Source: Gammaproteobacteria bacterium (GTDB lineage Bacteria > Pseudomonadota > Gammaproteobacteria > Xanthomonadales > Wenzhouxiangellaceae). Taken from it: 64,000 bases of DNA. Location: positions 62,001-126,000 of the forward strand of contig JAAAPE010000073.1 of NCBI GenBank assembly GCA_009908385.1. Reading direction: 5' to 3'. Made by a program: the position numbers and the translations under genes. A model generated the notes under the pieces. That model saw nothing but the letters and a program-made list of their open reading frames with translations. It did no database searches and was not told the origin of the DNA. Below, in pieces: positions 33,262-33,969 of the stretch (its first letter is position 1; each line of letters starts with the position of its first letter).

Positions 33262-33309
33262 GAAACGGGTTCGACTCCCGCCGTCAAGATTGCGGATATT
33301 CCGGGCACG

Positions 33310-33332
33310 AAAAAGCCGGCACGGCGGCCGGC
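33310..33332 (-). terminator. Rho-independent terminator (minus strand; downstream of smpB-ssrA)
   Basis: minus strand GCCGGC-cgccgt-GCCGGC-TTTTT. Confidence 0.75.
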
Positions 33333-33335
33333 GCA

Positions 33336-33597
33336 CTGTTGAGGTCATTCATCAGCAGTCGCTCAGCTTGGCTCTCGGCTTGCGTAGCAAGGCGTCGGCG
33401 CGCAGGTGTAGGGGGCTTACATCAAGCGCCGAGAACGCAGTCTACGCAAGCCGAGAGACAAGCCCTTCGGGAGCTTCAGAGCCGGCCACCCGCTGCGTTC
33501 CGCTCGCTTGAAATAGTCCTGCTATTCCTGCACTCGCGCGCCTTGCCGGAGACCGGCTCTGAAGCTCTGAGCGTCTGCTGATGAACGACCTCATCAG
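33336..33597. repeat. nested palindromic element (predicted three-way junction)
   Basis: 31-nt terminal inverted repeats (28/31) enclosing a 22-nt inverted pair (21/22) and a 15-nt inverted pair (15/15). Confidence 0.9.
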
Positions 33598-33602
33598 TTT
33601 TT
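33578..33602 (+). terminator. Rho-independent terminator (plus strand; downstream of serine hydrolase gene), using the outer end of the palindromic element
   Basis: CTGATGA-acgacc-TCATCAG-TTTTT. Confidence 0.65.
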
Positions 33603-33612
33603 CGGGGGATCT

Positions 33613-33969
33613 TGGTGGAGGCGGCGGGAGTCGAACCCGCGTCCGCGAACCATCTGATCCTGGTTCTACATGCTTAGCCCGCTCGATTTTTTCTCGCCGT
33701 TACGCCGCCCGAGGGGCAGGGCATACGCAACGGCCAGTCTCTGTTTGATTTGACGCCATGCCCAGAGACGCGACATGACGCGATCCTGCTAAATGATCTC
33801 CGGTCGGAAGCGCAGGCTCAACCGGCGGAGAGCAGGCTGGTTTTTAGGCAGCCAGTGCGTAGTTGTCGTCGTTGGCAACTAACTTTGGTTCAGCTGGTTT
33901 TACGAGGTGAGCTGAGACCTCGGCATGCCCCAGGGTACGTCCGATCCGCGTCGAAGCCGGAACGCCCCC
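33613..33969 (-). ncRNA. ssrA: transfer-messenger RNA (tmRNA)
   Basis: 5' end GGGGGCGTTCCGGCTTCGACGCGGATCGGACGTACCCTGGGGCATGCCGAGGTC; tag reading frame GCCAACGACGACAACTACGCACTGGCTGCCTAA (ANDDNYALAA*); 3' end CGCGGGTTCGACTCCCGCCGCCTCCACCA. Confidence 0.97.

Follow-up and report, generated by a model that had tools for sequence, protein, structure and literature searches.

The window, by which we mean the whole stretch of 64,000 nucleotides that was analysed, carries the tmRNA gene ssrA on its minus strand, and a palindromic element of 264 bp lies in the 3' trailer of this gene (Table 1). Read along the ssrA strand, the mature end of the tmRNA is followed by 14 nt, then by the element and finally by the intrinsic terminator (33332-33315). 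The position of the element downstream of the tmRNA gene had already been recognised in an earlier, sequence-only reading of this DNA; the terminator beyond it had not. The element has no transposase gene and is crossed only by short or overlapping chance open reading frames of this G+C-rich region. The host probably belongs to the Wenzhouxiangellaceae, since its ssrA region shares 79-80% identity with named members of that family but 67-72% with other bacteria.

Three pairs of arms at 33335-33598 close a tight three-way junction, as seen both by direct reading and by RNA folding. The outer arms a and a' pair at 29 of 32 positions and the outer arms of module b at 21 of 22, while those of module c (33471-33485 with 33553-33567) pair at 15 of 15 positions and can be extended imperfectly to 23 nt. 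All arms that the sequence-only reading had described were recovered in place, the fold reproduced the junction topology that it had proposed, and the inner stems TCGGCGC/GCGCCGA and AATAG/CTATT are present as well. Two properties had escaped it: the hairpin modules b and c are mutually inverted copies of each other, and the CCTTCGG between them is the centre of a conserved CCC-NNN-GGG mini-stem (33463-33471). The plus strand of the element folds as RNA with -158.2 kcal/mol (z -11.8) and the minus strand with -162.8 kcal/mol (z -11.9); none of 200 dinucleotide shuffles folded as stably, and folding as DNA yielded a z of -11.4. Values of about -12 on both strands are what a palindrome is expected to give. 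Since both strands fold equally well, folding alone separates neither RNA from DNA nor one strand from the other.

Table 1. Features of the ssrA locus and parts of the inserted element (positions in the window; R1, covariance model of the hairpin of the element)
Feature	Position	Strand	Match to R1
ssrA (tmRNA), host gene with the insertion in its 3' trailer	33613-33969	-	
Intrinsic terminator of ssrA, parted from the gene by the insertion; directly after the gene in element-free relatives	33315-33332	-	
Outer arm a, left terminal inverted repeat of the degenerate ACTAATGAGGTCGTTAATCAGCAGACATTCAG type, conserved junction CTCAG at its end	33335-33366	+	
Hairpin module b	33367-33461	+	76.8 bits, E 5e-19
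Module b, variable outer stem	33366-33387/33442-33463	+	
Module b, conserved core GCAAGGCG...GAACGCAG	33387-33440	+	
Linker CCC-TTC-GGG; nearly all branches have it as a 3-bp mini-stem whose loop varies	33463-33471		
Hairpin module c, inverted divergent copy of module b	33472-33566	-	81 bits, E 4e-20
Module c, core GCAAGGCG...GAACGCAG	33493-33546	-	
Outer arm a', right terminal inverted repeat, junction CTGAG at its start	33567-33598	+	

Complete elements were found in relatives, and hairpins also occur elsewhere in the genome of origin, in which BLAST returned nine matches with the self-complementary arms of the element itself counted in. Matches at the DNA level were present in 24 of 60 relatives. 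With the covariance model R1, copies were detected in 34 of the 43 genomes from the same family, with a maximum of 55 hairpins in one genome. The model also matched 51 of 274 genomes sampled across the class and 36 of 399 genomes of the phylum, some of them outside the class; at the level of the phylum the distribution is patchy. A DNA pattern scan of named genomes gave at least 120 stretches; Stutzerimonas, Azotobacter, Pseudomonas, Sedimenticola, Salinisphaera, Nitrosovibrio, Polaromonas, Wenzhouxiangella and one Sphingorhabdus are among the matches listed. One Stutzerimonas genome holds about 50 copies, as judged from about 100 termini. According to rough calls of open reading frames, convergent genes are not preferred as neighbours, and about half of the 3' ends of neighbouring genes are no more than 20 bp away from an element.

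The palindrome is missing from ten further ssrA loci of the genus (L072, L073, L075, L076, L078, L079, L082, L087, L090 and L091). In these, a terminator of the same kind comes within about 10-20 nt of the CCA end; the empty site of L073, for example, reads CCACCA GATCCCCGAGAGGAA GCCGGCCACCGTGCCGGCTTTTT. It follows that the element was inserted between the gene and its terminator. The copy in the window is an old insertion that entered the ssrA trailer of an ancestor and is decaying: its arms are 91% paired, and it is flanked by CA and TT, so that neither a TA nor a target duplication is recognisable at this site. The sequence-only reading had also considered a processing or protection element of the smpB-ssrA transcript, that is, a junction that protects or processes the tmRNA precursor as a structured RNA. 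The location in the trailer, ahead of the terminator and on the strand that encodes ssrA, would suit such a function, as would the very stable RNA fold on that strand. However, the ten ssrA genes named above do without the element, dozens of unrelated loci carry it on either strand, and both of its strands fold equally well. We therefore regard this explanation as highly improbable and close to refuted. What stands of the related proposal of a structured 3'-UTR RNA is its passive part, as the ssrA transcript probably runs through the element; anything beyond that fell. No Rfam family scored above threshold within the element, at gathering or at relaxed thresholds, so an Rfam structured RNA was discarded as a candidate, and the sequence of the window showed no similarity to phages and plasmids.

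To compare copies, 64 non-redundant complete elements were drawn from the fetched loci by means of their outer arms and linker. All 64 have the junction fold; their median length is 268 bp, and the 5-95% range spans 264-275. Arm a and the partner from the same copy pair at 16.8 of 18 positions, vs 9.1 of 18 for partners taken from other copies, and the sequence identity of arm a between copies is only 38% on average. Because the set had been chosen by outer arms and linker, unbiased tests are limited to the pairing of b and c, which had not been used for selection, and to a sample collected by the core pattern. Arms b and c pair at 15.2 of 18 positions within a copy vs 8.5-8.6 of 18 between copies. 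In the core-only sample, 51 of 83 assessable matches lie in complete elements and 10 of 83 in shortened ones, whereas among 83 windows placed at random in these loci, 8 contained an inverted repeat of such strength. Three elements (L003, L033 and L035) illustrate the principle: their three stems differ in sequence and pair equally well. Homologues with compensatory changes, on which the sequence-only reading had let its proposal depend, are abundant and their stems co-vary. Conserved across copies are the linker CCCNNNGGG, the junction YTCAG/CTGAR and the core gCAAGGCgc....cGC...AACGC.G, and in 52 of 60 copies module b is in forward and module c in reverse orientation. RNAalifold on a MAFFT alignment of the hairpins found double changes in 10 of 15 core pairs and missed the outer stems, as their sequences do not align. 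A count of wobble pairs, meant to tell RNA from DNA, did not separate the two: read in its own orientation, each of the hairpins b and c tends towards T-G mismatches, which places them on opposite strands, and the copies are not independent of each other. In most copies of module c the second core stem is CGCGAGC/GCGAGCG (e.g. in the core listed for module c in Table 1) and contains G-A mismatches in tandem; in other branches the corresponding pairs are of the Watson-Crick type.

In the pairs L036/L105 and L014/L041 one hairpin is 94-95% identical, yet the second hairpin and the ends are unrelated; in L041/L105 and L038/L039 both hairpins are 88-93% identical, yet the ends are unrelated. The modules combine independently. 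How both ends could be replaced jointly is most readily imagined for the folded form, in which a and a', though located at opposite sides of the element, make up one duplex. An apparent full replacement of the ends in L225/L239 turned out to be a register artefact. Rearrangements within stems were observed too. Shortened copies consist of the outer arms only (L168 and L308), L023 lacks hairpin c, and the element of L022 (1494-1762) differs from other copies in that the stem arms of hairpin c enclose the core in reverse orientation, which suggests an inversion inside a stem. Palindrome-driven rearrangement is therefore active in the family. This would fit an alternative in which the family is mobile and the fold itself has no role: template switching at palindromes would passively re-establish arm pairing, and the conserved core would be a plain protein binding site or reflect shared descent. 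Quasi-palindrome correction, not selection, could maintain the pairing of arms in old copies. However, length (264-275), junction, linker and unpaired core positions are the same across lineages that share little stem similarity, and passive repair by itself would not fix length and junction. We consider this alternative less probable, but it deserves to be taken seriously.

Direct traces of mobility are found in the closed genome G018, in which an element with the ends TTAACCCGG...CCGGGTTAA is nested in the terminus of another element with an exact TA duplication. The nested junctions read TTACTA-[element]-TAATGCGG at three places (L163, L164 and L165). In Stutzerimonas (L307), two tandem copies have one TA in common. 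We also observed that the TTAACCCGG-ended branch sits repeatedly at the same TA within the terminus of the other branch (TTACTA^ATG; L163-L165 and L169), from which the elements appear to target each other's ends.

Bacterial MITEs (Correia/NEMIS, ERIC, RUP, QMITE and others) resemble the element in being short, non-coding and multi-copy, with terminal inverted repeats and TA duplication, and also in their stable folded transcripts and a presumed transposase acting in trans, according to two reviews (PMC2229807, PMC10969869). The element has the same attributes: it is shorter than 500 bp without a transposase gene, has terminal inverted repeats (mostly 30-36 bp in relatives) and is interspersed in multiple copies with empty sites; nested and tandem members of the family show a TA duplication, which is not visible at the copy in the window. 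A non-autonomous palindromic mobile element with terminal inverted repeats of about 31 nt, one of the options of the sequence-only reading, is strongly supported. Differences exist nevertheless. As described in these reviews (PMC2229807, PMC10969869), each MITE is one sequence family of one or a few related genera, whereas the element represents one three-armed architecture with a fixed length of about 268 bp that occurs, with unrelated arm sequences, in many bacterial families and in more than one class, is not A+T rich and has exchangeable modules. For Coxiella QMITE1/2, Correia/NEMIS and ERIC, the comparison drew on their published descriptions. The Tn3-derived TIMEs of Pseudomonas are similar in size (about 262 bp), long terminal repeats, folded transcripts and mobilisation in trans, but their 38-bp Tn3-type ends and 5-bp duplications contrast with the TA duplication and other ends of the element and rule out identity (PMC4133298).

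A relation to REPINs was weighed in the same way, i.e. a REP/REPIN-like element that is moved by a REP-associated Y1 (HUH) transposase. REPINs (PMC3116915, PMC8266576) likewise consist of two inverted hairpins treated as one mobile unit, in which the head motif is conserved and the stems vary, and recognition of a single-stranded hairpin would account for selection of shape. In contrast to REPINs, the element shows no link to a Y1 transposase, has larger units and is closed by terminal repeats of about 33 bp with a TA duplication; long terminal repeats and TA duplication are DDE-type features. No Y1 gene was found in the draft assemblies G019 and G030, which have 24 and 52 hairpin matches, respectively, and the presence of Y1/RAYT transposase genes (PF01797) is unrelated to copy number. 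As the units also measure about 95 nt instead of 20-40 nt, identity with REP or REPIN sequences was rejected and mobilisation of this type seems very unlikely.

Termini shared with an autonomous insertion sequence were seen in one branch. Copies of the Stutzerimonas/Azotobacter/Halomonas branch end in CTAGGGTCTGTTGACGTTT or near variants and use a TA/CTAG target, and such ends, with the same target, bound an 862-bp IS5-family insertion sequence on an Aeromonas caviae plasmid (L315; CTAGGGGCTGTTGACGTTT, 16 of 16 positions between the ends; transposase NF033580, E 1e-79) and an 844-bp IS5-family insertion sequence on a Paracoccus liaowanqingii plasmid (L312). The interior of the element, however, has no evident relation to the transposase gene, and the termini in the window differ: its branch ends in ACTAATGAGGTCGTTAATCAGC, for which no matching IS5-family insertion sequence was found, and the window copy was not classed as an IS5-family derivative. 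No pair of window-branch termini spaced about 1 kb apart and flanking a transposase gene was found in 12 genomes, and no autonomous element with such termini in plasmids. Two wider pairs, of 1.65 kb in Stutzerimonas and of 5.5 kb in G018, were dismissed as autonomous elements; each consists of two separate elements, in the Stutzerimonas case flanking ordinary genes. IS5_3-type transposases are nearly absent from the host family, and a partial IS5_3 transposase copy in the genome of origin has different ends.

Taken together, the feature is very probably a copy of a MITE-type, non-autonomous DNA transposon that belongs to a three-armed superfamily of conserved architecture and became inserted between the tmRNA gene and its terminator. 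In the model that we propose, the outer arms a and a' are the terminal inverted repeats, at which a transposase encoded by an insertion sequence would cut in trans, presumably one of the IS5-family kind for the branch in the window. The element of 260-270 bp would then insert at a TA, often within CTAG, and duplicate it. Its interior is a fixed chassis of two mutually inverted hairpin modules with the CCC-NNN-GGG joint between them, closed by arm a to a three-way junction, which is cloverleaf-like when the mini-stem is included. In an ancestor, this copy reached the trailer of ssrA between CCA end and terminator, and it has been decaying since. We assume that the fold is kept as an aid to moving or to surviving replication as folded single-stranded or cruciform DNA. 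The persistence of the same three-armed fold despite almost completely different arm sequences suggests that selection acts on the shape itself. A further-reaching idea, which we put forward tentatively and hold to be possible rather than probable, is that of a mobile superfamily spanning classes, in which the folded three-way DNA junction is the selected trait, the transposase acts on folded DNA and arms are swapped at the junction. In the folded form both transposon ends would be one duplex and could be the target of a transposase on single-stranded or cruciform DNA; swapping of whole arms, both ends together, at the conserved junction would allow the chassis to take on the ends of different insertion sequences.

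The usual view treats a MITE as the sequence remnant of a particular insertion sequence. In the present family, distant lineages retain a single architecture, although their arm sequences are replaced and swapped as modules. Two questions thereby become accessible to experiment: whether ordinary DDE transposases act with the participation of a folded form of the DNA (or RNA), and how passenger elements switch their driver. The repeats also explain why draft assemblies of proteobacteria break into contigs at such sites. The freely accessible literature searched, which included PMC4133298, PMC3852290, PMC2229807, PMC10969869 and PMC5896051, holds no description of a three-armed family spanning classes; neither there nor in Rfam was a named family matched, and a search of papers for the literal terminus sequences gave nothing relevant.

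The surroundings of ssrA show further features. Beyond the ssrA terminator, the T-arm of the tmRNA recurs over 18 nt as a perfect inverted copy (CGGGTTCGACTCCCGCCG; 33266-33283, with its counterpart at 33622-33639). Similar inverted T-arm copies follow ssrA in L082, L083, L085 and L088, and L083 has behind it a second, directly oriented copy of the 3' end of the tmRNA, as after an integration event. At two further loci (L081 in G026 and L086 in G018) the tmRNA gene is immediately followed by the start of a reading frame that by eye resembles a P4-type integrase, for which reason ssrA is probably an attachment site of genomic islands in this genus.
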